Shown: positions 4,520 to 36,703 of the stretch, one piece after another
Layout of the letters: every line of letters begins with the position of its first letter
Numbering within the stretch: position 1 is the stretch's first letter
NCBI RefSeq assembly: GCF_949628265.1
Contig: NC_088789.1
Coordinates: 6,626,886-6,690,885, forward strand
From: Cloeon dipterum
Taxonomy: Eukaryota; Arthropoda; Insecta; Ephemeroptera; Baetidae
DNA: 64,000 bases
Reading direction: 5' to 3'
Translations under genes and position numbers: made by a program
The notes under the pieces: generated by a model
Databases searched by the model: none
Told to the model about the DNA's origin: nothing
The model's input: only the letters and a program-made list of their open reading frames with translations

Positions 4520-5545
4520 AATATAGTGGTTGATAGGTTGTATCATACCGAGATTAAAATGCTCTAGACTGAATAGTGCTGCCATCTGGTGTGTGGTTAG
4601 TGGATTGAAAAGTTTTTGGCGCGCGGGGAAAATCTGTTCTTTTATAAGGTGCTCTGTCTTATTAACAGTTATGGCAATGGTAGGCGAGATTTGTAATTGG
4701 AAAAATGCAGCAATAAATTTTTTTAATAATACATAATTGTTTTCTGCTGATGTAAGTGTTGATCGAATGCAATTGTTACATTGGCAAATGGCATCGATCA
4801 TCTAATTTCCTTGTCATTATTGCCCAATTGATTTGTGTAGTGTCATATATTTTGATCTTAGAGCAACTCTCATGCAGATTTTGATGTGATCAACATCATT
4901 TTTTTCATAAAAAATGATATAGATCATAGCGTTAGTCTGTTGTTTAGGCTGTTGTGAGCGTGCAATTGATAAATATTTATACTTTTTGTAATCACAAAGC
5001 CATATTGTACGTGATTAATCCTAATTTTCACCTAAATAATCGCCTTGATCCAATTTTATATTGCCTCCTAGCGTTGTAGCGTGTAACCGATGTTTTGTGC
5101 GGGTTGCTAGCAATAGTTTACAATAAAGTGTTGCTTTTATATTATTATTATTATCATCTTTATTGACAAACAACCAACAAATTATGGAATGGTTAGAATA
5201 TGGCTACTTTAATGAAACAAATTCTTTTTTACATTTAAAATAATTTATTCAACCCGTAAAAGAGACAAATTTCAGTCATAAATTATTGTTATAATTTGAG
5301 ATGTAACATATATTTATTGATGTATTGAAGTCATTTAATAAACAGTGTATTTATTATATTGATTTATGTTTTCTGTCATCCCGTATAATTTCACAACTAG
5401 TCACAATATTAAAATTTAATTATAAAGCTAAGCATGTATCAACGGATCCAAAATTGAGATGGTAAATGAGGCACAGTTATGAATATAAATATTACTAATA
5501 CATGGCACTCGCAAGCTGGCACACAATTAATCACAGAAAGCATAA

Positions 5546-8500
5546 TCAACACTCAAAGTTTGCCACTTGCAGGCTCACACATCTGTCTGCAATTTGGCGC
5601 CAGTGGTCTGCGTTCGATCGAAGGTAGTGCTCCTTGGAACCAACAATCAGGACAACCTCTTTACCTCGGCTTAGCATCACATTGGCACGGTTGGGGTGAG
5701 ACATAAAGCCAAGGAAGGATGGGGCTTCGGGCTGCAAATGCTCGTCGTGTGCCAACTCCCTCTTGATCACCGCAGCTTCAGCTTTCCTTGAGCACACCCC
5801 TCCTTTCTCAGCCCGCACAAGGGAGATCACAACAATGTCCCGCTCAAGTCCGAGGATGTCGTCAATTGTCTGGACGGGGATCTTTTGAGGCACCAGTTTG
5901 GCAATATCCTCCATCTGAAATCATATAGAAAGTGTTAAAGTCGACTGTTAAATTACCATTAATTGCTCTAATAAATTACCTGACGTCTGTATGGTGTCAA
6001 GACGCACACTCTGTTGGCACCAACCCGTGACGAGACCTGCGAAGCAATGGTGGCAACAAGACGAGCTTCGCCAGGGTTGTACAGAGAGGGGTCATATAGA
6101 CCCCTCTCAGCTGGACTGTGGAAGTCCAGCCAGTACAAGGCCTCGGCCGTGTCCCCCAGGCCGAACGGCTGTAGTGCTTCGCGCAGTTTGCAGCGATCGT
6201 CACTTGGTGTTGTGGGCTGGGCTGCCGTCTGAAAATAATTGGAAATAATTAATTGATGGAAAATAAAATATCATAAATTAATTAAACTTACCATTTTGCC
6301 ACCGTAGAAAATAGAGGAGATTGCTTCCACGATCTTGTAGTGGGAACGGTAATTCTTCGTCAGGTATGTTCCGCAGCCTGGGTGGGGGATGTAGCTGGAA
6401 AAAAGAAATTAAATTAGTGTTGAACTTGAATGCCACTATTAAACACTTACTTTGGGCCAATCCAATCTCCAGTATGGGGAAGGAGGTGGAAGATGGTTTT
6501 CCCACCATCCAGGGCTGCGTTGATGGGACTCATGCTTCTGGGGGTGAGTTGAAGTGGATCTCCTGCTGCGACTGTTGCGACTGCCTGGCCGTTCATCGTA
6601 AGGGCTCCTGCGATGTCAGGGAAGGAAAAGGAACCTGCCTCGTCGAGCTGTGGAGAATCGAGCTGCTTTATTAAATTGTCAATATGAAATATTCGGGGTG
6701 GATGAGTGACAGTTGGTTGGCTTAGAAATGGTAAATCAAGTTTTCTCAGATATATATATGCAGTGGTAACATCCCGTGAAATATTGAAAGATTTTCAATT
6801 ACCATTAAATATTATTAAATATAACTTACCAATGTGATGAGTGGCGGGCGGTTGTTGGCACCTTCTGATAAGCTGATCCGCGCAATAGAGATTGGGGTGC
6901 CAATTACGAGCTGGTGTTCCCTCTTGTACTGAACCTTTGATGCTCGCTGGGTCAGGTCCATGGTCTCTTCTGGGCAGTTCGCCAGTTCCCTCTCTGAAGT
7001 CAGTCTCACGATGGCGGCCCGGTTGACGTCTCTACGCAGGAGTCTCCTGACTGTCGCGCCAATACCCTTGTTGCTATTTACTACTAGGTGGACGCTGCAA
7101 AGATTAAAGAATGAGTAAATATTAATTTGTTTAATGGAGTGCTATACTTACAGGGCATCTGCTGGGTTGTCCTCCATGTGGTGTTTGTAAATTTGGAGCA
7201 GCACCTCGTCGAGAACCCTCGTCTTCCCTGTTCCGGGCGGTCCCACCAAAGTGTAAACGTGGTGAAGGCGGCTGTGGGTCAGGATGTTGCAGACGGCTTC
7301 CAGCTGCTCATCATTGAGTGGGCCTCCTATCAGCTGTTGTCCGTTGCGCAACCCGTCAATAATCTCTTGCGGTACCTTAATTTAGGAATTTGAAATTAAG
7401 TAACAAATTAGGTACAAGAAAAATTGTACAAAATTTACCAGCGGCGATCCCAGTTGTGCTTCTGGTGGACCCCTTCCTGGGAAGAACAGGTGACGCAAGG
7501 CTGTCAGTGCGTCTAATGTGGCTGCATAAGGTATCTGGTAGACGATTGTGGCGCTGGTGAATCGAATCTGGCACTTCAGCTGGACACCCCGGGTCATACG
7601 GATGAGCCACGACTCGTCAATGGTGGCGTTGTTGAAGCCAATCTTCAACTGCAGAGACGGACTAGTGCTGCTTAGGGCCTTGACGAGCAGTTTGTCTGTG
7701 TGGAATAAAAGAATTAATATCATGGTAGAGGTATGGAAATAATTGCTACCTTTGTATGAATTTTTGCCACGTCCTGGCAAAGAGAAGTGTGCCCAGACTC
7801 CCACTGCCTCCTGCAGGCATTGGTAGACTGCTGCATCCAAGTCGATGTTGAGGTGAGCAAACCAAAGGTCTTCGTCATCCCGTAAAAGAGTGCATTCGCC
7901 TGACACTGCGTCGAGTGCGGTCTGTAGCCACTTATACTCCAAGAGCGGCACTGCAAGGCATCTGTAGAGGGAAATAATTATTTGTTTAGTGAATTGCTTA
8001 ATATGTAAACTTCATTGATTCTTACCTCTGTAGAGCGTTGTGCTCGTCAAGCTCTCTGTTGACCTGGGGATGCGAGGACCTGAGATAGTCCAGTGCAGCA
8101 AGTCTAGGGAAAAGCAGAAGCATTAATTAATAAAAAGGAAAAAATAAGGAGGTTAAGTGTTGACTTACTGGTCTTTTTTTGCCACCGATTTTGCGGACAG
8201 CTCAAGCCATGGCTGATGATGGAATTCCAGCTTTGGCAACTCAGGACTTCGTCTTTGCATCTTCAATATTGGCACGTCTACATTTGGGTTGAGTCGAGCA
8301 CGTGTCCAGTCAATATACTGTTGCTGCCGTTCGCGCATCCTGTCTTTGACGTTTGGGTACGACTCCTGATAGTCCGGCATTGGTCTGGAATATTAAGTAG
8401 ATGTTGAACACAGATGTAAGGAAGGGGATGTTAATGATAAAATAAATATCTGACATTTTATGAAGGAAAACTGTCACATCCCGTGGATTAAAATTATGCT

Positions 8501-8957
8501 AGCATTTTTAATAATTGCGGGATGTTTATGATAAAATAAAAATCAGATATTTTAGGAAGGAATTGGCGAGGAATTGATTATGAGTGCTATCAATTTGTTA
8601 CATCCCGTGGATTAAAATTATTTTAGCATTTAAAATAGAACGGTACATAGTCATGGTATAAAATAATGGTACTTACTGGCCAATCATGAAGTCATTGTAT
8701 GTGCCCTTCCAAACCGTGTTCAAGCTGCCAACTCTTGTCTGTGTAAAGGATAAAGATACAATTAATGCAAGGAATTAATTTATTATGTTTGTTGTGTGTC
8801 TTACCCTGTCGAAACCAGGTAGGCGCTCGTTCGCTTGCCTGCGTCTGTCAATCTTGTTACGTTCTTCCAGGTCATTTCCAGCAAAACCGAGGCAATCTGA
8901 CCAGTTGAATGCGCGTGAATTGGGGAAGTCGTGTGCCCTTTCCCAATGCCTATCCAT
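5546..8957 (-). CDS. MOV10-like superfamily 1 (UPF1-type) helicase
   Basis: About 800 residues over roughly 12 exons. Walker A GPPGTGKT is near 7230-7255, motif II is DEAG (6645 region), motif III GDPLQL, then LTKNYRSH, VLTPYRRQ, the TIDDILGLERDIVVISLVR block and RANVMLSRGKE. This order is that of UPF1/MOV10-group 5'-3' helicases; NYRSH and DEAG are closest to the MOV10/Armitage branch. The N-terminal part, MDRHWERAHDF onward, is not recognised and no zinc-binding region is seen. The start at 8957 gives a compact first exon (8957-8805); an in-frame Met at 9089 is possible but reads like untranslated sequence. It is transcribed away from the tandem array and the methyltransferase. MOV10-type enzymes remodel RNA in small-RNA and retroelement pathways; the role here is unknown. 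Confidence 0.8.
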
Positions 8958-9173
8958 TTTGTGTGTGTGTCCTGCAGGCTTGAGGGAAATTACCGAAATT
9001 ACGTTCAATGTGTGAAGCACGCGATGCACAATAACAATCAGCTGATGAAAGTGAGAGTGAGCAAGGAGGCGGTGTCGCTTGTGATGCATTGAAATTGAAA
9101 GTGTGATGCTTTGAAATCGAAAGTGTGATGTTATTGGCTAAAGAGCGGCGCGGTAGGAAATAGGATTTGAAAA

Positions 9174-9186
9174 TTGGCGCGAAATG
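9174..9186. promoter_or_regulatory. E2F-like site upstream of the helicase gene
   Basis: ATTGGCGCGAAAT fits the palindromic E2F pattern TTSGCGCSAA. It lies about 220 bases upstream of the helicase start, with further GC-rich words (GGCGCGG, GGGGCGGG) on either side. Confidence 0.45.
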
Positions 9187-9244
9187 TGCAGGGGCGGGAA
9201 AGAAAAATGGAATAAACAGATCTAAATGAAATAAGTTTGTGCAG

Positions 9245-12200
9245 CGATAGATCCATCTTTTTCAGTAATTGTTTGCGGTTCCAGATTGCTAGAAAAATCT
9301 GATAAATCGGGAAAAGCATGTTTTGACAGTTTTTGGAATTTTTTGGCCGTGATCTATCATCTTTTTGTTAACTTTTCACCATAGATCCATCTGTATTTCT
9401 CAAAATTGGCGCTTTAAAAATTGTTGCTAGCCTGGAAAATATTAAAAGAGCTTCCCGCAACACAACTGTTCACCTTTGAACCCATCTGCAGTGGTACAAC
9501 AATTAATAACGGCAATTTGCAAATTGTTCGGGCAGAGGCGCCCGCACACCCTATGCTTCTCATGGAGTTTGCGCGGCAGCATGAGCAAAATATTGCAATT
9601 TTCGGAAATAAGCTGCTTTTTGCTCTGATGAACCGTGCAAAACAAGTGGACGGGCTGTATGTGTGATTAAAAAATTCCAAAACCAAATTTGGGAGCGAAA
9701 AGGGCCTGATCGAGCCATGCCAAAAACCCATAATTTGATAGATCACTATTTTTCAACGATTGTTCCCGGTTCCAGATGGCCAGAAAAATCTGATAAATCG
9801 GGAAAAGCATGTTTTGACAGTTTTTGGAATTTTTTGGCCGTGATCTATCATCTTTTTGTTAACTTTTCACCATAGATCCATCTGTATTTCTCAAAATTGG
9901 CGCTTTAAAAATTGTTGCTAGCCTGGAAAATATTAAAAGAGCTTCCCGCAACACAACTGTTCACCTTTGAACCCATCTGCAGTGGTACAACAATTAATAA
10001 CGGCAATTTGCAAATTGTTCGGGCAGAGGCGCCCGCACACCCTATGCTTCTCATGGAGTTTGCGCGGCAGCATGAGCAAAATATTGCAATTTTCGGAAAT
10101 AAGCTGCTTTTTGCTCTGATGAACCGTGCAAAACAAGTGGACGGGCTGTATGTGTGATTAAAAAATTCCAAAACCAAATTTGGGAGCGAAAAGGGCCTGA
10201 TCGAGCCATGCCAAAAACCCATAATTTGATAGATCACTATTTTTCAACGATTGTTCCCGGTTCCAGATGGCCAGAAAAATCTGATAAATCGGGAAAAGCA
10301 TGTTTTGACAGTTTTTGGAATTTTTTGGCCGTGATCTATCATCTTTTTGTTAACTTTTCACCATAGATCCATCTGTATTTCTCAAAATTGGCGCTTTAAA
10401 AATTGTTGCTAGCCTGGAAAATATTAAAAGAGCTTCCCGCAACACAACTGTTCACCTTTGAACCCATCTGCAGTGGTACAACAATTAATAAGGGCAATTT
10501 GCAAATTGTTCGGGCAGAGGCGCCCGCACACCCTATGCTTCTCATGGAGTTTGCGCGGCAGCATGAGCAAAATATTGCAATTTTCGGAAATAAGCTGCTT
10601 TTTGCTCTGATGAACCGTGCAAAACAAGTGGACGGGCTGTATGTGTGATTAAAAAATTCCAAAACCAAATTTGGGAGCGAAAAGGGCCTGATCGAGCCAT
10701 GCCAAAAACCCATAATTTGATAGATCACTATTTTTCAACGATTGTTCCCGGTTCCAGATGGCCAGAAAAATCTGATAAATCGGGAAAAGCATGTTTTGAC
10801 AGTTTTTGGAATTTTTTGGCCGTGATCTATCATCTTTTTGTTAACTTTTCACCATAGATCCATCTGTATTTCTCAAAATTGGCGCTTTAAAAATTGTTGC
10901 TAGCCTGGAAAATATTAAAAGAGCTTCCCGCAACACAACTGTTCACCTTTGAACCCATCTGCAGTGGTACAACAATTAATAACGGCAATTTGCAAATTGT
11001 TCGGGCAGAGGCGCCCGCACACCCTATGCTTCTCATGGAGTTTGCGCGGCAGCATGAGCAAAATATTGCAATTTTCGGAAATAAGCTGCTTTTTGCTCTG
11101 ATGAACCGTGCAAAACAAGTGGACGGGCTGTATGTGTGATTAAAAAATTCCAAAACCAAATTTGGGAGCGAAAAGGGCCTGATCGAGCCATGCCAAAAAC
11201 CCATAATTTGATAGATCACTATTTTTCAACGATTGTTCCCGGTTCCAGATGGCCAGAAAAATCTGATAAATCGGGAAAAGCATGTTTTGACAGTTTTTGG
11301 AATTTTTTGGCCGTGATCTATCATCTTTTTGTTAACTTTTCACCATAGATCCATCTGTATTTCTCAAAATTGGCGCTTTAAAAATTGTTGCTAGCCTGGA
11401 AAATATTAAAAGAGCTTCCCGCAACACAACTGTTCACCTTTGAACCCATCTGCAGTGGTACAACAATTAATAACGGCAATTTGCAAATTGTTCGGGCAGA
11501 GGCGCCCGCACACCCTATGCTTCTCATGGAGTTTGCGCGGCAGCATGAGCAAAATATTGCAATTTTCGGAAATAAGCTGCTTTTTGCTCTGATGAACCGT
11601 GCAAAACAAGTGGACGGGCTGTATGTGTGATTAAAAAATTCCAAAACCAAATTTGGGAGCGAAAAGGGCCTGATCGAGCCATGCCAAAAACCCATAATTT
11701 GATAGATCACTATTTTTCAACGATTGTTCCCGGTTCCAGATGGCCAGAAAAATCTGATAAATCGGGAAAAGCATGTTTTGACAGTTTTTGGAATTTTTTG
11801 GCCGTGATCTATCATCTTTTTGTTAACTTTTCACCATAGATCCATCTGTATTTCTCAAAATTGGCGCTTTAAAAATTGTTGCTAGCCTGGAAAATATTAA
11901 AAGAGCTTCCCGCAACACAACTGTTCACCTTTGAACCCATCTGCAGTGGTACAACAATTAATAAGGGCAATTTGCAAATTGTTCGGGCAGAGGCGCCCGC
12001 ACACCCTATGCTTCTCATGGAGTTTGCGCGGCAGCATGAGCAAAATATTGCAATTTTCGGAAATAAGCTGCTTTTTGCTCTGATGAACCGTGCAAAACAA
12101 GTGGACGGGCTGTATGTGTGATTAAAAAATTCCAAAACCAAATTTGGGAGCGAAAAGGGCCTGATCGAGCCATGCCAAAAACCCATAATTTGATAGATCA

Positions 12201-12747
12201 CTATTTTTCAACGATTGTTCCCGGTTCCAGATGGCCAGAAAAATCTGATAAATCGGGAAAAGCATGTTTTGACAGTTTTTGGAATTTTTTGGCCGTGATC
12301 TATCATCTTTTTGTTAACTTTTCACCATAGATCCATCTGTATTTCTCAAAATTGGCGCTTTAAAAATTGTTGCTAGCCTGGAAAATATTAAAAGAGCTTC
12401 CCGCAACACAACTGTTCACCTTTGAACCCATCTGCAGTGGTACAACAATTAATAACGGCAATTTGCAAATTGTTCGGGCAGAGGCGCCCGCACACCCTAT
12501 GCTTCTCATGGAGTTTGCGCGGCAGCATGAGCAAAATATTGCAATTTTCGGAAATAAGCTGCTTTTTGCTCTGATGAACCGTGCAAAACAAGTGGACGGG
12601 CTGTATGTGTGATTAAAAAATTCCAAAACCAAATTTGGGAGCGAAAAGGGCCTGATCGATCCATGCCAAAAACCCATAATTTGATAGATCACGTCTTTTC
12701 GACGATTGTTCGCGGTTCCAGATTGCTAGAAAAATCTGATAAATCGC
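9245..12747. repeat. 491-bp tandem array, about seven copies
   Basis: Nearly identical 491-bp units run head to tail between the divergent helicase and methyltransferase genes. The two outer edges, near 9285 and 12715, share the divergent wording CAGATTGCTAG where inner units read CAGATGGCCAG. Each unit holds an inverted pair GTGATCTATCA ... TGATAGATCAC, one TTGGCGC word and one CGGGCTG. A C-to-G change marks units 3 and 6 (near 10490 and 11963), which suggests a three-unit higher-order period of 1473 bp. A plus-strand 81-codon frame recurs in each unit, but 491 is not divisible by three and no start, splice or continuation context supports a protein. Confidence 0.95.
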
Positions 12748-12842
12748 TAGCAGCCTGTAGGATACTTATTAGTAAAAATTTTAAATATGTTGGGTGAAAT
12801 TTAAGTATTTCATCAAAAATCAAATTTTTGAATCTGTTAAAA

Positions 12843-12876
12843 GCGCGCCAATTTTTGTTTGATTTGTTATGGCGCG
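12843..12876 (+). promoter_or_regulatory. E2F-like block upstream of the methyltransferase gene
   Basis: GCGCGCCAATTTT followed by GATTTG and GGCGCG, about 65-95 bases before the start codon at 12939. The order CGCG, ATTT, GATT, GGCGC resembles the block upstream of the small coiled-coil genes. Confidence 0.4.
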
Positions 12877-12938
12877 TACCGCATGTGTTCAAGTGTTTTG
12901 TTGTTATTGTTTATTGTTGATGCAGCAGCCCGAAGAAA

Positions 12939-15900
12939 ATGAAGCCTCTTGGCTCATTCTGGAAGTATGGTGCAGGTGAAGTTATCAGGATTGTGTCTTT
13001 TAAGGTTGAAGAAGAATTCAGAGATGGTGATAGATACCATGGATGCATTTATCGGTAAGTTTTTAGCAGTTTATGGTGCATGATGAGGATGCTGTTAAAA
13101 ATTACAATTAGGCGGGCTTCGTTCTCTTTACTTGGAGAAATAGCGGATGAGAGGGAACTGTTCCAAACCGATAGATGCTGCGAGGTAGTGGAAAAGGATC
13201 TGAGGTGCTGTGTAAGTGTTGCTGCCACACAAGCTGAAGGGGAAGACATATACTTCTGTAGATACAGGTAAAGTGAGATTAAGTTAAAATACGTACAACA
13301 AAAGTAATGCAACCCTCACCTTTACGTTCTATAAATTTATTATTAAATATATTTTAAAGGTTGGAAATGAATTACGCATTCAAGCTGCCAGTCGATTTTG
13401 TGTCCGGGTTGAAATGCTCCGGTGGAAGGGCGTGGTGGAAAATTGGCAATGCAAAAGTTGTGGCTAGCGGAATTAATGGTCAACCCACAGTGGAGTATTT
13501 AGGCATGATGATCTCAAGACACACTTGTGTTGCCGTTGAATGTGAAAAACAAGAGCTGCTCTCAATTATGAGGGTTGAAGGCATCATTCTACCGGAGGGT
13601 GTGAAGGCAGGTAGTTCAAGATCTGCTTGTAAAATCAGGCTGAGGGCTGCAGCATTTGAAAGGGATGGAAATGCCAAGGCTGAAAATACGTTAATTCTCA
13701 CAAATTGTTGTATGTTGCATTGAGAAGATATTTATTAAATTAATTAATATGTATTATAATTCCTTCTGCAGCCCGCATCGTTCCACTGAGTCGTGTTCAG
13801 CGCGTTGTGCAGGTCTTCTTTGCTGCAAGCAGGAAGGAAATGATGTTTACTCCAACAACGAGCTTCACAGGCGTTCCATCCTTCTCGTGTTGTGCGGTGA
13901 AAGAAGCTGAATCTGGTCGCGTGCAAGAAATTGGTCACCCTGCAAAATATCAAATCATGGCTGCTATTTCAAGTGGCCCTCGCAGACCTCTGCGCTGCCT
14001 TGATCTGTTCGCTGGCTGCGGAGGAATGAGTGTCGGGCTTGAAATGAGTTCGCTGACCAGAACCTTGTGGGCAGTGGATTCAAATGAAATAGCCTGCAGC
14101 ACATTCAAGCGAAATTTTCCACAGGCTAGCGTATATTGCGATTATGTCGAGCATTGGCTGCAGCAAGTGAAAAGAGTATAGAGCTTTCATATCATCATAT
14201 GCCATTTTTCTCATTATAAAATTCTCTTGTTTTGCCAGTTGGGACAAGGTTTACCACAGCAGGGTGAGGTGGAGGTCATTATCGGCGGTCCTCCATGTCA
14301 AGGATTTTCTCAGTGCAACAGGCAGAAGAAAAGCAAGAGAGCATCAATGAATGTTTGTATTTTATTAAATTACGGGATGAGAAATATTTAAAGGATTTTT
14401 TTTTAATTCTTGAATCACTATTTTTATTACAATAATAACGTATGTGATCAGAATAATTAGATTTATTTTAATTCTCTAAGATGTAACAAATAGATCCACC
14501 TGGTAACCACGTTGCAAAAGAAATAAAAGAATGAGTTATGACAGAAAGATTATTAAAAAATGTGCATTTCTCTAGATCAGCCAGACTGGAATATTCATGG
14601 AAGTAGTGAAATTTCTCAAGCCCCGTTTCTTCATCATGGAAAATGTGAAGGAAATTGTTACACATGACAAGGGGAAGCATCTCAGGGAAGCTCTAAAAAC
14701 CGCTCTGGACCACGGTTACCAGGCGAGGATGATGGTGCTTCTAGCTGATGATTTTGGAGTACCTCAACTTAGGCAGAGGTATATGTGAAGATGAAATAAT
14801 TATGTGCAAAAATCAGGCGATTATTTATTTTCCAGATTTTTCCTTGTTGGGGCTCTTGGCAATGAAGAACTCCCTGACATCCCGCGGAGAACACACCTGT
14901 CTGGAAGGAAGTGCCACAAGCTGCAGTGCGGCAGTTGCCCATTGGTTTCTCGATTGTCACTTGTGAAATACATATTCTAACTATTCTAATGGCTTGATTC
15001 TTGCAGGATTTCTCTACTGAAGAGCCTGCAATTTTTGGACCTGTTACTGTCCGGGATGCAATTAGTGACCTGAAGGACTTGGAGACCACACTCGGGGCGA
15101 AACCATACCCGCTTGTGCAGTCTGCCTATCAGGCAAAGGTAACTAGAATATCAAATTATGATGTGAACCACTTTTGGTCCCCCCCTGCTACCGGAGTTGC
15201 TATATTTTTTAGCGACTGCCGCGCCATTAAATATCATTTATTCGCTCTGCAACAACTTATGGTCCCTCCTATACAACAGCAGTTGCAAATTATTGGCTCA
15301 AAGTAACTTCTAAATCTGTTTAAAGATCTCAACTCCGTCTCCAGGAGGGGACCAAGTGTGTTGCTTTTTTAATTTGTGTTATTTTAACCCTGCGGGAGTA
15401 ACAATATGCGTCTGGAGCACCATAGAAATGTGCCCTACTGAGATCATGTTCAAATTCCCTCCGAGCTTGCAAAATTAATGAAATAAAAGTGTTCATTGTA
15501 CTTTGAGCAGCAATATGTTTTGCAGATGCGCCGAGGCAGTGATAGAGTTAAACTTCATAGGATGGTAAAACCACTATCTCGAGTAGACCAGGTCAGAATA
15601 AGCAAGATCAAGCCTGGAGAGGACTGGTCTGTTTTGCTGACTGAGCCTGCAGATCAATGGTAGGAAATGTGGTTTACTGCTTTCCCAACAGGAATTTAAC
15701 ATTATTGTATTGCTTTTAAGCGGGCTGCAAGGAACAAATCTGGCTCCAAGCATGCTTTCCAGAACAGGGCCACGCAATGGCTGGTGGAAGGGCGCCTATG
15801 GACGGCTCGAGTGGAACAAGAAATTTAAAACTATAATTGCCTCGCAAAATTTGGCATCAAAGAGTGGAACCCTAATTCACCCACAAGTTGACCGGACCAT

Positions 15901-16094
15901 TACGCTGAGGGAAATCGCTCGCGCCCAGTCATTTCCAGACAACTTTGTCTTCAGAGGCACCCCAAGGGCAATTCAGAGGCTGGCAAGTGCATTTATCCAC
16001 TGTGCGTATTTAAAGATCTAATCTATTTTTTCAGATTGGAAATGCTGTGCCACCCCTACTGGCAGAGTGCATTGGTTTCTCGTTTCAGCAATGA
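12939..16094 (+). CDS. BAH-domain DNA (cytosine-5) methyltransferase
   Basis: Eleven exons join into one open frame of 685 codons: 12939-13054, 13112-13267, 13360-13709, 13772-14175, 14239-14352, 14576-14778, 14836-14962, 15007-15138, 15526-15659, 15721-15982, 16035-16094. Residues about 30-95 resemble a BAH domain ([10 protein letters not shown], then IYFCRY). The catalytic domain starts near residue 250: motif [27 protein letters not shown] with the nucleophilic Cys, VI ENV, VIII QLRQRFFLVG, a target-recognition stretch with [26 protein letters not shown] and [10 protein letters not shown]. All key residues are present, so activity is plausible. It is closest to the DNMT1 type but lacks the RFTS and CXXC regions and has one BAH. 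The last intron is GC-AG (GCAAGT donor at 15983). The upstream neighbour is the 491-bp array. Confidence 0.9.
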
Positions 16095-16306
16095 ATTACT
16101 GCAGGATGGCCAAGTCAGGGATCCTCAACAAGCACTAATGGCTACCCTTCTTCACAGTAGAGTTCAACCCGGGGTGTTTTGAAAGCGTTTGTGAAATCAA
16201 CAATTGTCAAAAGTTCCCCTTCTTAAAAATTTTTAGAAAGTCAAACCCCAGTTTGGAAACATTATTAAATAAAATATGTGACCAGTGCCATTCTTATCAG
16301 AGCTGT

Positions 16307-17208: not shown

Positions 17209-17443
17209 CCCGCGAAATTTCCTGCTTTTTCTATTATTAAATCAAGTATTATGCATTCATTGTTGTTTACTTACAACCTTTCTGGCGTCGTTCTGGTTTT
17301 CTTCTATTTTGGGGCGCTGCACGCGCACTTAAAGATTAAAATTTTTTGTTGCAACGCCTCGTTTCAGATTTTGCCGCCACATATTTACTTCAAGGCGACT
17401 GTTGCCTTCAGTTTGTTTCGATTTGAACATTACAATCATCGCA

Positions 17444-19225: not shown

Positions 19226-19569
19226 CAGTTGTAATATGTTATGAATAAATTTTGGATTGGAATCTGATTTTGAATTTAGGTACTTTCACTGGCTCATCCA
19301 GCACAAGTATATTTGTATTACAATAAATTCCTACTCCAAAGTCCCATTTTATTTGATACTAGTTGTTACTCAAATAAAATCTTGAAATAAATTATTTAGC
19401 TTTTTAACTTTTTTGCATTTAATTTACTAAACCCCACAATTGCGCAGCATCTTAGCGAAGATTTTCAAAGAAAAAAGAAAAACCAAAAAAGAAAACGGCC
19501 AATCAAATGGTTGATATGTTTGAAATGGCTCTGTCATGTGTAATCCTTTACTGCAGGCACACGCTTTGC

Positions 19570-20071: not shown

Positions 20072-20104
<33 letters not shown>

Positions 20105-27811: not shown

Positions 27812-27913
27812 GGTGATATTGCCCTTTTGAGTGGTTCTCTTTCAGGATGTGGCCAGATTAATAATCGCAATTTCAGCCCGCGAATCAACAAATTGGTGGC
27901 CATTAACTGAAAA

Positions 27914-27970
27914 GCGCGCAAAACTACTGAAACAGGAAACAGGATATCGCGCGTTTTCAACTTGCACCAA
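27914..27970 (-). promoter_or_regulatory. E2F/CCAAT-like promoter block of the recombinase gene
   Basis: About 100-160 bases upstream of the start codon at 27811 lie GCGCGCAAAA (27914), TCGCGCGTTTTC (27946) and CCAAT (27967). A TTTGGCGC word follows near 28021. CGCG words with A/T flanks plus CCAAT match the other promoters of the island. Confidence 0.4.
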
Positions 27971-28071
27971 TCAGGACAAGGCATGCTTCACTTGTCATAT
28001 AGCCCTTATTGTTTCAGCTAGTTTGGCGCTGACTTTTGATTTACATCAATGCGACAATAAATGACCAGCCA

Positions 28072-28440
28072 TCTGCCCAATCCATTTTCCATGCTCTACT
28101 TAGAGATTCTGAGTTGCAAATATTAAACAATCGACAAAACACTGTTTAAAATATATTTTTTCAGCAACTATAGACCTTCCGGGATGTTAATACCACAAAA
28201 ACCATTGGGTAAATAAAGCACAAAAGCTTCTTTAAAATCACTAACAAAATAATTTTATGAGGAATATATGCATTAAAGATTCAAAGCAAACACATTATTC
28301 ATGAAATGCCTTCACCAAAGTCAATTTATTAAAATAATTTGAAGCATAATAATAGCAAAAATTTTCTCAACTAGCCATGCGCACACCATAAATTAAAGTT
28401 CAAGGGCCCAAACAAATTAAAATCAAGCACATTGCAAGCA
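28072..28440. other. Spacer without a gene
   Basis: AT-rich spacer between the recombinase promoter and the 3' end of the next gene. One CGGGATG word occurs near 28180. Nothing else was recognised. Confidence 0.5.
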
Positions 28441-28442
28441 GA

Positions 28443-29812
28443 TTACTTAAACTTTCTTCCTGGTCCCTCCTTTGCCAGCGCATCCAGCAGTTCATCGTGC
28501 TCCGGAAGACACTTCATCTTGATCATTTTCTCAATGAATGTTTCCAGCACTGCCATCAAATCCAAAAGAGCTTCGTGTTTCATCTCCAGCTCAACCAGTT
28601 CTTTCTTCACATCAACAGCCCGACAACAAATGCTGTGATTCTTGTCGTTGGAGATCTCCATACTTGAATGGGAGTCCACAATGGCCTCCTGCACTTGTTT
28701 AAATTTCACTTCAAGTGACTCCAACTCTCCTCTAACCAGGCTCATTTCCTTTCGGAGTGCTCGGACTTTATCTGAGGGATGTTCAACAAATTAGCTCCAT
28801 GCCAGAATACAATCAATTTATATTACAATGGCAACCAATCGACGGGCTTGGAGCAATGCCAGTTCCAGTGTCGATTGCAACAGATTCCAGGCTCCACCGG
28901 CTGCCGTCATACTTCAGCACTACAGACACAGCCCGCAAAGCTTCACTCATGTCTGAAATATTTAAAGTTTTAGTCAATGTTCCCCATTAAAAAACTACAA
29001 CACCTTACCTGCACCCATGTCAAGCAAGACCTCATCCAGCAAAATATTCGGCCAAAATCCCTGGCGTTCGATGTCAAATTTTTCATGGATTACTTGGCCT
29101 CCGGTTCCCACTGAATCACATGTGTCCTGCTTGTCACAGTGTTGGTCAACTCTAGCTTCTTTGCTGCTCCCAGCGCCACTTCCGTAAACTGTCGGTTCAC
29201 TTTCTTGGATATTAAATTCTTCTACATCTTTCCTATACTGGTTCTCAACAACCCGACAGCAAAACCTACCATAAAACAATACACAATACAAATTGGTTAA
29301 TAACTATTTATTTATATCATTACCTCTTGACTCGGCCATCAGCGCCACTACCATCAGCCTCAGCCTTCTGCGACGCCTTTTCGATGAACTCAGTAATGCG
29401 ATTCGGGTAACGCATAAAATTTTCCTTCCAAGTGTACGCGTCACTTGCCCCTGCAAACATTCAATTTACAAAAAAAAAGTCGCATCAATAAAAAATAAAT
29501 AAAAACTAACTTCCAATGTAAATCATCATCTCCTCCTCATCATCTTCAGGTCTAATTAATCCACCAATAAATCCATTCATAGCAGGTCGAACAAACAGAC
29601 TGCATTTATCATTGCAGGTAACCGCAAATGGATAATTCTGCAATGGCAAATAACCTAATTAATTCTAAAATACAGTACAAAATGCTAAAAATCAAATCTA
29701 TCTACATAATCAAAACTATCCACGATCAATAAATAAATGCTACGCTTTTCATTAGACATCTATATTTCCTGCTTACCATGATTGAATCTATTCTGCTTAT
29801 TGGTTTGCTCAT
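28443..29812 (-). CDS. Two-module protein sharing the recombinase N-terminus, with a coiled-coil C-terminus
   Basis: Six exons: 29812-29777, 29637-29511, 29450-29334, 29265-29009, 28952-28836, 28771-28443; about 325 residues. The first exon is exactly 12 codons (MSKPISRIDSIM, phase 0). It joins a module (NYPFAVTCNDKCSLF ... IRPEDDEEEMMIYIG) that aligns with the same two exons of the recombinase gene (RIDLLK; IRPRSPGDTLELVMFVGG). The middle is acidic and polar. The last exon begins after a phase-1 intron and is a coiled coil (MSLVRGELESLEVKFKQVQE). The shared module could be a common interaction or assembly domain. No catalytic motif is seen. The function is unknown. Confidence 0.7.
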
Positions 29813-30159
29813 CTCTTAATATCGTAGTTTCTCTAGGGATATACAATTCTTCTCGCCTAATAATCAAGGATTAGGATTCAAAATCAGTCTCGTTCAACCC
29901 GTACAACGTTCTCTTGCTGATAATGTGAGTGTAACTGCATAGCAATGGCGGAAAAAACAAAACACACGCGTTATCCATACAACTACGAAAATCAGTTTAA
30001 TTATAATCACAGTGCTTAGCCACAATTAAATTGATTTCTATTTCAAGGGTGTCAATATATTATTCAGCAGACGGTAATTATTGCCCAACACTAGTGAAAA
30101 AATTATTAATGCAAAATTTTAACTCGCATTCACAATTATTTTTAAACACTAAAAGTTGT

Positions 30160-30200
30160 CCCGCCAAATTCAGCCGACGCGCGAAATTGATATTGGCGCC
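30160..30200. promoter_or_regulatory. E2F/CCAAT-like block between divergent genes
   Basis: CCCGCCAAATT, then GCGCGAAATT and ATTGGCGCC within 41 bases. CCCGCCAAA is the reverse complement of a canonical E2F site (TTTGGCGGG). The same arrangement recurs at 32269-32305 and 34111-34157. It may serve the minus-strand gene at 29812 and the plus-strand gene with a noncoding first exon ending near 30304. Confidence 0.55.
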
Positions 30201-30850
30201 AACACCACCACACACCGCTCGCAGCACTCACTCAACAGCTCAACACACACTTTTGCTTGTTACGCTCATCCAGCAACAACATCTTTACTAGCTGCGCATA
30301 AATTGTGAGTAATTTTTCTAGAATATATTATTGCATGTTCAATTAATTCTTAACACACAATTACGATTTCGGTTTCTTATATTACAATAACACTTCCATT
30401 TATTGATTTGGACATCCCGATTAGATAAATGCATTATTTCAACATTTATGTAATTATGTACATAACATGCATTATACGCTAAATTATGTATGAATATTAC
30501 TTCTTACTCACGGGGTGTAATGTTCACTGTTACTTAAACCTATATCTGGCATTGCATTTACTTCAATTCAATTCTGATTATTTTCAAACATTTAATTCAC
30601 GAGTTTTATTAAAATCATAAATTAAATTTTCATTCATATTATATAACATACAATTTCTTGATTCACAACAAAAAGCAACGCTTGCAGCATTACACACCCC
30701 GAAAGTAAATAATAATGCGCTTAAAACTTTGATAAAAACACTAATACATAAATATGTTACATCCATTTGACTCACAACTAATATCTCCATCATGCAAATT
30801 CAATTTCTGACAATTTTTACAGCCTACTTTTCAAACTGTGGCCACATATT

Positions 30851-31535
30851 ATGTCCGGGATGCAAGATAACAACACCTCCAACAGTGCCAAAACACCATC
30901 CAGACATAGCATCGGCTCCTGGCATGATGACTGGAGTGAGGAAATGAAACAACACGTTGACTATGAGTATCTGCGGCGTAAGTTACAATCCACTTAAAAC
31001 TATTCCAAATTTTTCTTTGATCGCGTATCTCTTCCAACCAGGGGGCCTCAGAGAACCTCTGGGTAAAGGCTCGACAGTCACAGTAAATTACTCAGGCAAC
31101 CCTTTGGTCGCCACCAGCATTGAACTTACAGGAGTGACTCATTCCAGTCAGCATCAGCAGACAGAGCTGTGCGCATCTGCAGCTGGTAATTGTGTTTCGT
31201 ATAATTCACTCGCAGCCATTTAAATTAATTTCATCTCTACAGAATCCATCGCTAAATCCAAGCACACCATTTCCAAAATCATCCGGCATATGCATCGCAT
31301 CGAGCACGACCTTTGCCTGACTCAGAGGGAGCTGATCCGGGCTGCAGATGAGGAATCTCGCACCGTGAATGCCACAGAGGCCATCAACAAAATGCTTGAG
31401 GACCTTCTGCTGCAGCGAAAAAAAATCAATGGACAAATTGATAATGCAGTAGATGCTGCGACTCGTCTTGAGCGCATCATTGCCTCATTGTCAGAGCCCA
31501 AAGCAAAGGCAGTCCATCAAAAAGCCAAAATTTAA
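30851..31535 (+). CDS. Small coiled-coil protein, paralogue 1
   Basis: Three coding exons (30851-30977, 31042-31185, 31243-31535) follow a noncoding exon whose donor is at about 30304 and whose acceptor is at about 30821. About 188 residues. The first exon is polar and probably disordered (MSGMQDNNTSNSAKTPS), the second is Thr/Ser-rich, and the last is a long helix (ESIAKSKHTISKIIRH ... LERIIASLSE) ending in a basic tail. The last exon begins in phase 1 at E-S-I-A, the same boundary as in the two following genes, so the three are paralogues. No known family was recognised. A role in self-assembly or as an adaptor is possible. Confidence 0.75.
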
Positions 31536-31539
31536 GATT

Positions 31540-32260
31540 CATTTTAAGTTTTTCAAGTGCCACTGCTGGCAGTTTATATGAGTTTGTAATAACAGTTTAT
31601 TCGTCTTTCTCGGGCTGACGCAAATGTATTTTTTTTTAGATATTACCCGACTGCTTGTCAAAACAATCCTTTGTAATTTTTTTTTCATAGTAATTTTGTC
31701 TAAACAGCTTTTTCTAATTTTCTACAATTTCTTGACTAAAACGACATCCCGTCTGATGTAACATCGATTATTTTGCATTAAAAATATTTTTTGTAAACAC
31801 AATTTTCTTCACACCCTGTTTAATTAATATTTAAACCGACAATTTTTAATTCAATCGTGTCCGAAAAACTATACGGCACACGATTGTCATCAAAACAATA
31901 AAATTTATTACACTTTCACAGTTCTTAGCTCCTATTAAGGCATTACGTAATTTTGTCAAGACACAATCTAATTACTTTTACAGCATTACCTTCATTAGAA
32001 TATCAACCCTCAACTAGCAACAATCAATCACTGATTTATTGTCACATAACTATTTCTTTTGCCACCTAATTTGACCATTACAGATTCAATTCATCTCTAA
32101 TGACGCGATTTCTAGCATAATGATTTGGTTCAACACAATTTTTTTAAATAATAGTCATTGCTTCAACAATTAAAAAGCATTATAAACGTTAAAAAATAAT
32201 AATAAAACACGCTATTATTTGCAATCAATTCACTGGTTTTTCCCCAAATCTTACAGTCTA
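31540..32260. other. Spacer without a gene
   Basis: 3' flank of the preceding gene (AATAAA-type words) and AT-rich spacer. It contains CGGGCTG (31610) and CATCCCG (31744) words. No coding frame is supported. Confidence 0.5.
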
Positions 32261-32268
32261 AACACATC

Positions 32269-32305
32269 CCGCCCAAATTCAAGCTTCGCGCGCGATTTTG
32301 ATTGG
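32269..32305 (+). promoter_or_regulatory. E2F/CCAAT-like promoter block of paralogue 2
   Basis: CCCGCCCAAATTC followed by CGCGCGCGATTTTGATTGG (reverse CCAAT). It is positioned upstream of a noncoding exon whose donor GTAAGT is at about 32436. The order and spacing match 30160-30200 and 34111-34157. Confidence 0.55.
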
Positions 32306-32894
32306 TCCTAAAAATAACGCTCCATCCATAAAGCCTCCACGCCCACACAGCACCACAGCAACACACAGCACCAGAACCGCATGCCGCTAACAAACAGTTA
32401 ATCCAATCGCATCCGCCAGAACGACAAGAACTCCATGTAAGTTATTATCAAATTACGCTTTTCAATATGGAACAAACACAACTTATTTGATATTGCATTA
32501 ACCCGCTACCACATTTTGATTTTACGCAGCACAACATAGACAAATTTCCACGCGCTTGCATGTCCATTAAATATTTTTTGTATTAGACTAACCTTGTTTA
32601 CGGGCTGATTTACCCATTTCCGCTTGAATTGTCAAACTTAATTTATTCAATACATGTTTCCATCAACCCGCCACACACATACCATTACATAACAAACCAT
32701 TACTTTCACAAATTGAACCACCCTATTGCACATAATTAATTTCCCCGCAACTAAATTCAATTAGTAAATAAAAAAATATAACAACACAGACAATCAACAA
32801 TTTCTCCGGCAAATATTAATGTAATTCATCCCGCTTAAAATTCATATCTGCATTACAGATATTAACTGTCCTACATCATACGGGTTGTTTCAAC

Positions 32895-33413
32895 ATGAGC
32901 AAATCAGACGAAGACATGATTAACCTGGACAGCGACAGCGACATGTCGACTGCCTCCACCCTATGCTGCTGGGGTTGTTGCAACGCGCCAAGTTCGCCAA
33001 CAGCAGCGGCCTCCAAACAGCTTTGTGATGAGGACTGCATCAAGCACTTCCAGGGAGGCACAACTGTTGGAAGTAAGTTAATTTCAATTTTGTCTAGTGC
33101 AGCCTTTCATTCTCGCACCGTTACAGATTCACTCGTTAGGGCAGAGGCTGCGCTGGAAAAACTCTACGTTTCCTACAATGACTTGAACACTGAATACAAA
33201 GACGCGCAGGCTGTTCTGCGAGAAAACAGTCAGGAGACAGACTGGCTGGAAAATGCTCGAAGAAGGATCAGCATGAGGATCGAACGCCTCGTGAGGATGC
33301 GTCCCAAGATTGAACAACGGGTGAAGGACGCATCCAAGGCAGTTGTCGAGTTCGAGCAACGCCTCACCGAGTTTACGAAGCCTGCTCAAGACCTGTCCTC
33401 CGCGAGAAAATGA
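32895..33413 (+). CDS. Small coiled-coil protein, paralogue 2
   Basis: Two coding exons (32895-33072, 33127-33413), with a 5'UTR intron ending at about 32858. About 154 residues. The N-terminal exon is acidic and Ser/Asp-rich (DMINLDSDSDMST), then has a Cys cluster (CCWGCC, later C, C) and an Ala/Ser linker. The second exon starts after a phase-1 intron at N-S-L-V and is a long charged coiled coil (LEKLYVSYNDLNTEYKDAQ). Reading through the 54-base intron also stays open, so intron retention would still give a protein. It is a paralogue of its two neighbours and carries no recognised domain. Confidence 0.75.
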   Translation: MSKSDEDMINLDSDSDMSTASTLCCWGCCNAPSSPTAAASKQLCDEDCIKHFQGGTTVGSKLISILSSAAFHSRTVTDSLVRAEAALEKLYVSYNDLNTEYKDAQAVLRENSQETDWLENARRRISMRIERLVRMRPKIEQRVKDASKAVVEFEQRLTEFTKPAQDLSSARK

Positions 33414-33805
33414 TCGACAACTTTTTTGTAGTTGATTTTTTGCGGGATGTTTTTTTTATTGAAATCTTTCGGCCACATCAGCCAACACCATTGCATTGTC
33501 ACCTCATTATTTTTATTTCTGTAACTAAAATTCTTCAATTGCAACCCGACATTTGTATGTATTGTACCTTTTTAATTTTGTAATAAAATGTTCATATTAT
33601 AAATTTAATTCCTGATGCCAATTAATTGAAAACTACCAATTATAAATTACTAGAATATTTACTGCAAACACACATTGTATTCCATTTATATTACTTCCTA
33701 AAACATAATTATTTAAACTCATTCAGCTCTAACAAGCCTTCATATATGACGCTATTTACAAAAACACTGTCTGGTTTTTCCCCAATCTGAGCCTCCTCAT
33801 TTGTC

Positions 33806-34075
33806 ACCAAGAGACTCGTGAGTCTCTTCATGACAGAAACACCGCAAAGTTTGGGTGGTCTGAAGAGACTCGTGAGTCTCTTCAGGACAGAAACACCGCA
33901 AAGTTTGGGTGGTCTGAAGAGACTCGTGAGTCTCTTCAGGACAGAAACACCGCAAAGTTTGGGTGGTCTGAAGAGACTCGTGAGTCTCTTCAGGACAGAA
34001 ACACCGCAAAGTTTGGGTGGTCTAAAGACACTCACTGTCACCAAGAAACTCATGAGTCTCTTGGTGACAGTTTTT
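33806..34075. repeat. 54-bp tandem repeat with a palindromic core
   Basis: Four to five units contain GAAGAGACTCGTGAGTCTCT followed by TC, a 10-bp-arm inverted repeat with a 2-base centre, joined by AACACCGCAAAGTTTGGGTG. A decayed copy follows (CATGAGTCTCTTGGTGACAG). It sits directly upstream of the E2F-like block of paralogue 3. Related palindromes lie at 37069-37226, and one half-copy is near 4214. Confidence 0.9.
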
Positions 34076-34110
34076 TTATCCATGAGTCTCTTCAGACCAC
34101 TATGTAAAGC

Positions 34111-34157
34111 CTTTCCCGCCAAATTCAAAAAACGCGCGCGCATTTGTGATTTGCGCC
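34111..34157 (+). promoter_or_regulatory. E2F-like promoter block of paralogue 3
   Basis: TTTCCCGCCAAA is a full E2F consensus on one strand. It is followed by CGCGCGCGCATTT and GATTTGCGCC. The noncoding exon ends at the GTAAGT donor near 34282. Confidence 0.6.
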
Positions 34158-34585
34158 AAGAACACCACTGCAACCACACCTTTTGCACAGCACAGAGCAG
34201 TACCACTTACTATTCAGCCATTGCAAAACGCACTCGCAAACAACAACATCCACTGAATAACGTGAATCACCAATAAATCCGTGTAAGTTTATCTCATGAT
34301 ATCCTTCCTTCATCAATTACATACTGCCACCACGAATGTATTTCTCTACATAACTGTTTCCTTGCGGGCTGTTTAAGTAAATTTCATATTTCATCTTATG
34401 ACTTTCTTTCTTAATTAACATGTTTAAATCATCTCCACATACATAACATACCATTCTTTACATATACATGATCAACCAGCTTATGCAAATAATTACTTTC
34501 AGCCCGCACAAGCACATAATGATTAAAAGCCATAACAAAACATTCACATTTATCCCACCTTTGCAGCCAAGATAATTTATTCGGG

Positions 34586-35002
34586 ATGTCTGCCATGCAA
34601 CGTTTGTACTCTGACGACAACTTCCAACACAAGGGGAATCCTACTAACATGGATCCCTGCCAAAACACGGAGGGTAACTTCGCAGCTTCTGAGCACCAGC
34701 AATTGCAAGCCAGGTGCTCTTCAGCTAAAGGTAAATGTTCTTTATTTCAAGTATTGTCGCCATTTAATTACATGTCTATTACAGCATCAATTGCAACTTG
34801 TGAGAGGGCAATTAAAACATTCTACCGCAGACTTGACAACATTCAAGCTGACCTGTCCAACAAACACGTTGACTACGCCGGAAAGTTCCGTGAAATTGAT
34901 CAAGTACAAAGAGAGATCAACGCCATGTACAGGAAACAGCGCAAGCTCAGGGAGGAGCTGGTTGGGCTCGATGCCCGTGTAAAGTTGCACCAGATGCAAT
35001 GA
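34586..35002 (+). CDS. Small coiled-coil protein, paralogue 3
   Basis: Two coding exons (34586-34730, 34785-35002) after a 5'UTR intron (about 34282-34566). About 120 residues. The first exon is polar and likely disordered (MSAMQRLYSDDNFQHKG). The second starts after a phase-1 intron at A-S-I-A and forms a coiled coil (CERAIKTFYRRLDNIQADL ... REINAMYRKQRKLREELVG). The shared architecture with the two upstream genes (promoter block, 5'UTR intron, disordered exon, phase-1 intron, helix exon) marks a tandemly expanded family. The start codon is part of a CGGGATG word at 34582-34588. Confidence 0.75.
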   Translation: MSAMQRLYSDDNFQHKGNPTNMDPCQNTEGNFAASEHQQLQARCSSAKGKCSLFQVLSPFNYMSITASIATCERAIKTFYRRLDNIQADLSNKHVDYAGKFREIDQVQREINAMYRKQRKLREELVGLDARVKLHQMQ

Positions 35003-35520
35003 GACACTTTGAGAGGCAGTTGACCTCAAAGGGAGGCGCATGTCGAGGTGCACCCTTCAAATAATAGTGCACTCATTCTGTTTCAAAATTTTTGATAAAT
35101 TTTCTTTTTCTCGGTATGAAACTAATTATTACCATACGGGATGTTTCTGATTTGCACATGTGTAAAGGCTTATAGGCAATTGTATCACACACTTTCTTAT
35201 AAATTTATAAATATTTGTAGCTCTTTTCATCGGAATGCAACCCGGGTAGTGTACCGCCATTGAATTCAATAAAACATTGTTTTTCAAATTTCACTTCCCT
35301 ATTATCTTTTAATGTCAGCCACCAATTCCAGTTTTATATACAACAACCCGACCACCACACTGCAAAAACCCACTCGAAAAAAAATAAATCCAAGACAAAA
35401 GCATCCAACTACAAAAGGATTGTCACCACTAGCCGACAATTTACAATAAAAATGATCGAAAATAATCTTCCTGCATTACAAAGCAAACCACACACTTTAC
35501 AAGAATGATCACCCCGTCTA

Positions 35521-35977
35521 TTAGTTGAAGATCGGTCTCCTTCTCTTTGGCACTGGGCCTCTTGCACATGCAGCCAATTTCGCCAACTCTAACCTAAAAG
35601 ATAATTCATATATCAGTCTCACTATACAATTTAATAATTGCTTTTTATTACTGCCAGTCCTCCACAAGAATTTGCATTGATTGCCGAACTGCAACATATG
35701 ATAGCTCGGGCACACTTCCTGGAAGATGATCCTCTGTTTCACTGAAAATAATAATTTTCAATTACATAAATTTTCTCAGCAACATCAATACATACCTGCT
35801 GCCAACTGGCATTGTCTGTTCCTTCGGGCTGTCAAACTCTAAAAAGATGTCCTGGTCAGAGTCCGAATCTTCGCTGCTCAGGTCATCCCTCAATTTGGAA
35901 TCAACGTCCGAACTCTGTTGTTTGGCTTCAGTTGGCTTCTCCAACGCGCACTCTTCCGCAGCATCAGTGTCTTCCAT
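35521..35977 (-). CDS. Small acidic protein with a basic C-terminal tail
   Basis: Three exons (35977-35796, 35741-35652, 35593-35521) with phase-2 joins, about 114 residues. The N-terminal half is strongly acidic (DDLSSEDSDSDQDIFLEFD). The middle is a short helix (VPELSYVAVRQSMQILVEDW). The C-terminus, RGPVPKRRRPIFN, looks like a nuclear localisation signal. A Met ten codons upstream is an alternative start. It is convergent with paralogue 3. No family was recognised; a nuclear adaptor or chromatin-linked role is a guess. Confidence 0.6.
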
Positions 35978-36382
35978 CTCCCTACTGATTGTGAACAATA
36001 TAATTTCCATATTTTGATAACTTCACTCATTGGGCCACAAAAACACAATGAAAACATTCAAAAATATTTCTGTCTCCATAACTACTCACAACACACAACA
36101 CACAATGAGGCTTCGGCTGCATGGTCTCACCAACTATGATTGTAACTCTTGGCACGGGATACACAACTTTCACCAGCTGCAATTTGGTCCTTCACGGCAC
36201 CGACACATTTATCTAACTCAACCCGGACACGATTTGTCACAAAATTTGTCTTGTAAATGTGTCACAAAATAACGCATGAATCATCTATTGCAAAATAAAA
36301 ATTAAATTTGCGGGCTGCAATGCATCTCTGTTCTTCACATTATTTTAACAAATTCAAAGCTTTAAAATTATCAATAAACGAG

Positions 36383-36703
36383 TCATGTGTCCACACATAA
36401 CCAAGAGATTTGCAACTTGAAGGTCGCTAAGTTAGCAACTGATTTGAACACTTGTTTAGTGCCATCCATCGCCATCAATATTAAAGGAAACAGTGCCGCG
36501 TGTTTGGCCGCTATTTTAGCCGCTGGTTTAACCGCTAAATTACCGACAAAATTAGCCGCTTGACCCACCGCGCCCAACAATAACTTGGGCATGACCCAAA
36601 CAACACATTTAAAGATGAGAAACATGCCAATCATTGCTTCTATGGCTGCATCGCTTTCTGGACAACCTCCAAGCCACCCCGTGAAAACACCCTCTCCAGG
36701 CAT
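36383..36703 (-). CDS. Small hydrophobic, probably membrane-associated protein
   Basis: A single open frame of 106 codons (MPGEGVFTGWLGGCPESD...). Residues about 22-45 (IEAMIGMFLIFKCVVWVMPK) form a likely membrane segment, followed by an Ala/Lys amphipathic stretch and a second hydrophobic patch (HAALFPLILMAM). A Met at 36721 is an alternative start. It contains the right-most dense-zone CGGGNTG word (36676). No homology was recognised, and it could be a spurious frame. Confidence 0.4.
   Translation of the reverse strand: MPGEGVFTGWLGGCPESDAAIEAMIGMFLIFKCVVWVMPKLLLGAVGQAANFVGNLAVKPAAKIAAKHAALFPLILMAMDGTKQVFKSVANLATFKLQISWLCVDT

Follow-up and report, generated by a model that had tools for sequence, protein, structure and literature searches.

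Why should one seven-base word crowd into one part of an insect genome? The question is raised by a window of 64,000 nucleotides from the mayfly Cloeon dipterum (contig NC_088789.1, positions 6,626,886 to 6,690,885), where the word is CGGGNTG, with any base at N. The original prediction, made by eye from the letters of this window, had put about 75 non-redundant copies, or about 90 with tandem copies, into one interval and about five elsewhere. Exact counting on both strands (CGGGNTG or CANCCCG) yielded 100 occurrences, of which 95 were located at 5100..36681 and only five beyond, at 1973, 41497, 41937, 58905 and 58916. With the three tandem arrays of the interval collapsed to one unit each, 77 non-redundant sites remained, so that the dense interval is real and the counts made by eye were nearly exact. 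It is part of a mobile element of Cloeon dipterum that has further copies in the genome. We give even chances to the reading that CGGGNTG is a DNA-level self-address of one giant tyrosine-recombinase transposon family, read by a putative element-encoded binder with an anti-silencing or self-directing effect.

The word and the element that carries it

The density of CGGGNTG was compared with several backgrounds. Dinucleotide shuffles of the whole window (n = 100) contained 13.0 occurrences on average with a standard deviation of 3.5 and a largest value of 23, compared with 100 observed. A first-order model of the element predicted 5.4 sites as opposed to the 77 present. In an unbiased scan of the element with 13 word shapes CANCCCG ranked first with a z of 30.5. 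The shuffles and the motif discovery thus agreed with the original prediction, while its GC content of 36% was corrected to 41% by base counts, which had no bearing on the result. Genome-wide we found 21,346 + 21,724 = 43,070 sites in 190.1 Mb, i.e. 0.23 per kb, versus 19,069 + 21,452 = 40,521 for the reversed word as a control. Taken over all contigs CGGGNTG is thus at background level; as a total over 190.1 Mb the figure is compatible with further dense islands elsewhere. The non-array part of the element carried 2.79 sites per kb, a density that the genome at large does not share.

Comparison of copies with unrelated flanks delimited the whole mobile element, termed family A, at 4194..37243 (33,050 bp). 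The left terminus (4194..4245, plus strand), defined by copy comparison and an inverted-repeat search, has a subterminal AAGAGACTCACGA. The right terminus (37044..37243, plus strand), defined by copy comparison and a repeat search, has the inverted AAGAGACTCACGA together with palindromic GAGACTC repeats. At both element ends the inverted AAGAGACTCACGA sits 23-25 bases from the terminus. Four further copies had a left end identical to that of the window, and the right end was common to the window and a copy on contig C2 at 36.85-36.88 Mb; three further right ends matched within three bases (C2:34.52, C2:36.23 and C2:37.07 Mb). The compared copies had unrelated flanks and no evident target-site duplication. 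The distances from the element ends to the nearest site, 906 bp (chance 0.08) and 562 bp (chance 0.21), are unremarkable by chance. Thus the edges of the word-rich interval follow the ends of the element at 4194 and 37243, and the sharp edges that had been predicted were borne out. As single-stranded DNA the right end has a strong fold (z -5.2). A 54-bp tandem array at 33809..34033 (plus strand; Tandem Repeats Finder, TRF, and repeat comparison) is related to the termini and free of CGGGNTG; its units contain the palindromic GAGACTCGTGAGTCTC that is also present at the right terminus (37060-37220).

A genome search with the recombinase frame of the element (21421-22953) resulted in 30 matches in all, including family A, a sister family B and further diverged pieces. 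Family A copies of the frame were located at C2:36.87 Mb (100% identity), at C5:1.13 Mb with two stops (97%) and at C2:36.20 Mb (95%), and a broken copy at C2:36.42 Mb. In 20 of 60 genomic loci, which were compared with each copy covered in part, element-matching DNA contained 157 CGGGNTG in 63.3 kb and the adjoining DNA 8 in 63.8 kb. At C2:36.210-36.220 Mb a family A copy is interrupted by an unrelated insertion of about 10 kb, which is without any CGGGNTG. A- and B-like copies, some intact and some decayed, are concentrated towards the ends of contigs, at C2:36.2-37.1 Mb, where the contig ends at 37.46 Mb, and at C5:1.05-1.21 Mb.

The recombinase of family B has 37% protein identity to that of family A. 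The genome search located five copies, two on C1 (5717579 and 37785060) and one each on C2 (34355389), C3 (6677437) and C5 (31820176). Over 4.4 kb their identity was 99.97% or higher. Because of this near-identity they apparently moved very recently, and the family was probably active until recently. Family B encodes homologues of the methyltransferase, the SF1 helicase and the recombinase of family A. The recombinases of both families have the boxes FNxRRxxE, RxxRTT and GHxxxVHDxYY in common, which we take to be the catalytic boxes (R, RxxR, GH and YY). The family B protein had no match to PF00589. In one family B copy CGGGNTG occurred only three times in 24.4 kb, a stretch that may include up to 2.4 kb of flank. 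Thus elements of this kind do not generally require the word. On either side family B has large arrays of a 337-bp unit, which are oppositely oriented. A substitute word of its own was not found in 18 kb of non-array DNA of one copy, scanned with spans up to 11 and 5-7 fixed bases; the best candidate was AT-rich with a z of 11.3 versus 30.5 in family A.

Strictness, spacing and conservation of the word

The core of the word is strict. Each of the four N variants was enriched 11- to 19-fold in the element, in line with the predicted use of all four bases at N, while all 18 single-base neighbours ranged from 0.25- to 2.1-fold. The flanks of the 77 sites were unlike one another apart from weak preferences, i.e. 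T at -7 (45/77) and T at -4 (41/77), and avoidance of A at -2 (5/77) and of G at +7 (3/77). The extended word TNNTNBNCGGGNTGH was present at 23/77 sites of the element versus 2,116/43,070 genome-wide; its reversed control occurred 1,586 times in the genome. These preferences suggest a longer recognition sequence around CGGGNTG, which behaves like a recognition site.

Sites were mostly single, with 74 of the 77 outside tandem arrays, and they occurred in both orientations (32 and 45). Their spacing was even. The coefficient of variation was 0.70 versus a mean of 0.98 for random placement, and a fraction of 0.0005 of 2000 placements was as even. This was the lowest value among 388 words with 65-90 occurrences, a set that includes CGGGNTG itself and partly counts reverse complements apart. 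Mean spacing outside arrays was about 350 bp in coding and non-coding DNA alike. The largest gap between neighbouring sites was 1,050 bp, which four other words equalled or undercut.

Coding DNA carried the word as densely as the remainder of the element. There were 20 sites in 7,160 bases of coding sequence and 57 in 20,429 bases of the rest, corresponding to 2.79 per kb each, and a looser exon list gave 2.72 vs 2.82 per kb. Synonymous shuffles were carried out with six coding sets, i.e. the methyltransferase, the recombinase, a 448-aa protein and three short helicase pieces. Taken together they held 16 sites, compared with a mean of 3.2 in the shuffles, and none of 3000 shuffles reached 16. 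Individually, the excess was significant for the methyltransferase (P 0.002), the recombinase (P 0.001) and the 448-aa protein (0/3000), while P was 0.05, 0.28 and 1.0 for the helicase pieces, two of which alone show nothing. Thus the word is commoner than the encoded proteins require. A weak sense-strand bias of 44 to 25 (P 0.03; 69 of the 77 sites, gene spans drawn by eye) weighs weakly against a purely orientation-free reading of the word.

Across six family A copies 139 of 157 aligned sites were kept, and two sites present in a copy were absent from the window. The core bases of the word had 15 substitutions, while bases matched for composition and CpG would predict 26.6 (P 0.011). Because the copies share ancestry this P is optimistic, and the conservation of the core is modest evidence.

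Enzymes and candidate readers encoded by the element

The original prediction had taken the word for the recognition site of an island-encoded protein, a BEN or zinc-finger factor. This interpretation is partly supported. Strict core, flank preferences and coding excess agree with a recognition site, while neither kind of binder was substantiated. A gene without family assignment at 17446..19226 (plus strand) encodes 448 aa by splice model. Its product had no match in Pfam or PDB and none among 7,995 scored protein-database candidates, and no exon of the gene matched in the family B pieces compared. As there is not even a Cloeon database record of this protein, the gene model may not be annotated. 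By elimination only, it is a candidate for the DNA-binding protein. With no Pfam match it lends no support to a BEN factor, and the five places of the genome with a BEN-profile hit (PF10523, E <= 10) were all off the element copies; this search went exon by exon with the best candidates scored, so that a split domain could escape it.

A putative, divergent tyrosine recombinase with two C2H2-like fingers is encoded at 20752..23249 (minus strand). It is near-identical to the public protein P0001 (LOC135937615), which, its record being on another contig than the window, is probably the product of the C2 copy rather than of the window copy. As to the predicted zinc-finger factor, these were the sole C2H2-like fingers in the proteins scanned, and their profile match was weak (E 0.46). 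PF00589 was matched by P0001 below the cut-off (E 0.0099). Among 7,992 scored candidates the only relative of the recombinase was an uncharacterised Cloeon dipterum protein, with none outside Cloeon, and IMG/VR held no close relative.

A DNMT1-like C5 cytosine methyltransferase is encoded at 13080..16093 (plus strand) by ten coding exons with an open frame, based on a splice model and the public protein P0002. Variant b of the model agrees with P0002 from MNYAF on, the first exon being supplied by P0002; the database and PDB searches used variant a, which is six residues longer than variant b. P0002 matched PF00145 with an E of 2.3e-53. The best PDB matches were DNMT1 (E 1.5e-65) with the PPCQ and ENV motifs aligned, and the likeness to DNMT1 is one of best PDB matches, not of a phylogenetic tree. 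The Pfam scan of P0002 showed no CXXC or RFTS match, and BAH only below the cut-off (E 0.012). Judged by these matches, the element appears to encode a complete-looking DNMT1-like catalytic domain. PF00145 matches away from A- and B-like places, at C3:34442396, C1:5543547 and C2:6904444, are perhaps host DNMT genes.

An SF1 (AAA_11/AAA_12) helicase gene of several exons occupies 5549..8400 (minus strand), with an approximate 5' limit. Two exons had Pfam matches (PF13086, E 6e-7; PF13087, E 9.1e-12), and homologous exons are present in family B. The two word-bearing arrays, defined by TRF and site positions on the plus strand, are a 491-bp array of 7.1 units at 9246..12746 with one CGGGNTG per full unit and a 368-bp array of 7.2 units at 24495..27142 with two per full unit. 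Coiled-coil-like proteins were recognized by eye in open reading frames (ORFs). Exons of one are located at 28443..29303 (minus strand), and small ones are encoded on the plus strand by an exon at 31224..31535 and by exons at 32820..33413 and 34523..35002. Pfam matches were below the cut-off only for the first two, absent for 32820..33413, and limited to a single one below the cut-off for 34523..35002. With regard to a possible endogenous large DNA virus, the ORFs scanned against Pfam, a part of all ORFs, contained no viral families; they contained no reverse transcriptase either. Upstream of three plus-strand genes, at 30160, 32268 and 34115, the motif CCCGCC(C)AAATTC, presumably E2F-like, is followed by CG-rich DNA.

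A proposed self-address weighed against its alternatives

The proposal of a self-address builds on the observed word with its limits, strictness and even spacing, its excess in coding DNA, its near absence from the sister family and the encoded enzymes. Strictness, even spacing and indifference to coding suggest a site at the DNA level with a local effect that covers the whole element, and family specificity despite shared enzymes suggests a reader particular to family A. In the mechanism we infer, the element would encode a protein that binds DNA sequence-specifically at the CGGGNTG sites. The bound protein would keep the whole element open or unsilenced and might guide the DNMT1-like enzyme and the helicase of the element to self DNA. 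In the active lineage, sites would arise and be kept through selection for full coverage, while they would decay in dead copies.

The nearest parallel is the anti-silencing system VANDAL21/VANC21 of Arabidopsis (PMC5735166). There, VANC21 binds YAGTATTAY, single-base changes drastically cut binding, and motif density matters for localisation. A single transposon family carries the motif at high density, with few copies in related families or the host, and another VANC uses other motifs (PMC5735166). Similarly, CGGGNTG is short and strict and crowds in one family of transposons with the host genome at background, and a related family, family B as judged from one copy, nearly lacks it. In both systems motifs are also found in tandem repeats; as to accumulation by repeat formation, two mayfly arrays bear the word while 74 of the 77 sites are outside them. 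Yet the plant motifs are mainly non-coding and arrayed in one orientation (PMC5735166), whereas the mayfly sites have the same density of 2.79 per kb in coding sequence and the rest, are mostly single, and are evenly spaced in both orientations. Moreover, a VANC-type system has an element-encoded protein that binds the motif and removes methylation; the plant binder is known and the mayfly binder putative.

Several points count against a self-address. The sole candidate binder was arrived at by elimination, and binding to the word is itself presumed from sequence. VANC motifs are found mainly in non-coding DNA, while CGGGNTG is equally present in coding DNA. Family B, probably recently active, does without such a word in the one copy examined. 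Furthermore, conservation of the core was not significant without CpG matching (6/464 vs 587/30,542) or when analysed by class (CpG, P 0.30; non-CpG, P 0.09).

We disfavour, as unlikely, the alternative that the DNMT1-like methyltransferase of the element targets the word or is recruited to it and that the methylated CpG marks self. The original prediction had considered a methylation-linked mark, and the cytosine methyltransferase encoded by the element as well as the CpG in the word fit this part of it. In addition, the CpG observed-to-expected ratio was 0.66 in the element versus 0.82 outside, and CpG bases differed between copies more than others (99/2517 vs 1007/47494), as methylation would give. 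However, the ratio was about 0.5 in the element middle (14000-28000) and likewise about 0.5 in the host flank at 58-62 kb, which is thus partly as CpG-poor; at the left flank it rose to 1.2. The decay products expected of a methylated word were not clearly enriched (TGGGNTG, 1.0-fold; CAGGNTG, 1.4-fold). Only 6/254 word CpGs were substituted, with deamination-type changes in 3/254 versus 69/2517 of other CpGs (P 0.21). Because word CpGs decay no faster than other CpGs, this is mildly against a methylated mark. Protection of the word CpG from deamination had seemed apparent in an early subset (0/154 vs 36/1495); it vanished with more sequence, as the P of 0.21 shows. Finally, family B has a homologous enzyme and no such word, and to our knowledge DNMT1-type catalytic domains do not have six-base specificity.

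Equally doubtful is a role of the sites in DNA metabolism of the element, such as loading of helicase or recombinase, replication or packaging. Bacterial DNA uptake sequences and Chi sites are dense strict words on self DNA read by known uptake or recombination machinery. CGGGNTG resembles them as a dense self-labelling word, although they span whole bacterial genomes. Even spacing throughout the element independent of genes and the encoded helicase and recombinase are in favour of such a role. Yet family B has the homologous helicase and recombinase without the word, and both orientations are frequent.

Ordinary transcription-factor sites that co-regulate the genes of the element are improbable. 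The sense-strand bias would agree with them, but even spacing and coding exons as dense as the rest would not. It is more improbable still that a host-encoded factor reads the word, e.g. a silencer marking the element as foreign. The word is near background in the genome, and an element should lose sites through which the host silences it, yet these sites are commoner than the proteins require and show mild conservation. A compositional or mutational accident, or the spread of one repeat, is very hard to believe, as chance and base composition were ruled out by shuffles, genome count, word scan and first-order model, and a repeat, which two arrays that multiply the word might suggest, by the 77 sites left after array collapse, 74 of them outside arrays with differing flanks, and by the coding excess over synonymous shuffles. 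Thus we favor a self-address of family A.

Mobile elements with a cytosine methyltransferase have been described before. According to the pertinent sections of PMC5890265, retrotransposons of dinoflagellates and charophytes, in Symbiodinium of the LINE and DIRS type, encode enzymes that can methylate CG de novo, and self-methylation has been suggested. The mayfly element resembles them in carrying a CG methyltransferase. It differs in that it is from an insect, that its enzyme is DNMT1-like and that the scanned ORFs include no reverse transcriptase, and those sections of PMC5890265 do not describe an address word. With Cryptons and other tyrosine-recombinase DNA transposons (compare PMC3212892) it shares a recombinase as likely integrase and the lack of an evident target duplication, and with fungal Starships (compare PMC12289983) its giant size. 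Unlike these it unites a DNMT1-like gene and an SF1 helicase gene within 33 kb, and its recombinase had relatives only in Cloeon among the 7,992 scored candidates. The open-licence papers surveyed, at the level of titles and abstract openings, announced no mayfly tyrosine-recombinase transposon and no such insect element.

The wider proposal is that an animal transposon lineage evolved a complete self-address: a strict and even word that extends through coding DNA and is read by a protein of the element for exemption from silencing or steering of the methyltransferase, in one lineage of a new giant class of DNMT1- and helicase-bearing tyrosine-recombinase elements with a sister lineage lacking it. 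We hold this tentatively, at somewhat less than even chances. As far as we know, how transposons escape silencing in animals is largely open. The element is also an insect case of mobile DNA with a DNMT1-like gene, and the families with and without the word together with dead copies are natural controls within one insect genome. If the proposal is true, the reach of the word into coding exons would mean that selection shaped a 33-kb parasite in its entirety to be recognized by a protein of its own.

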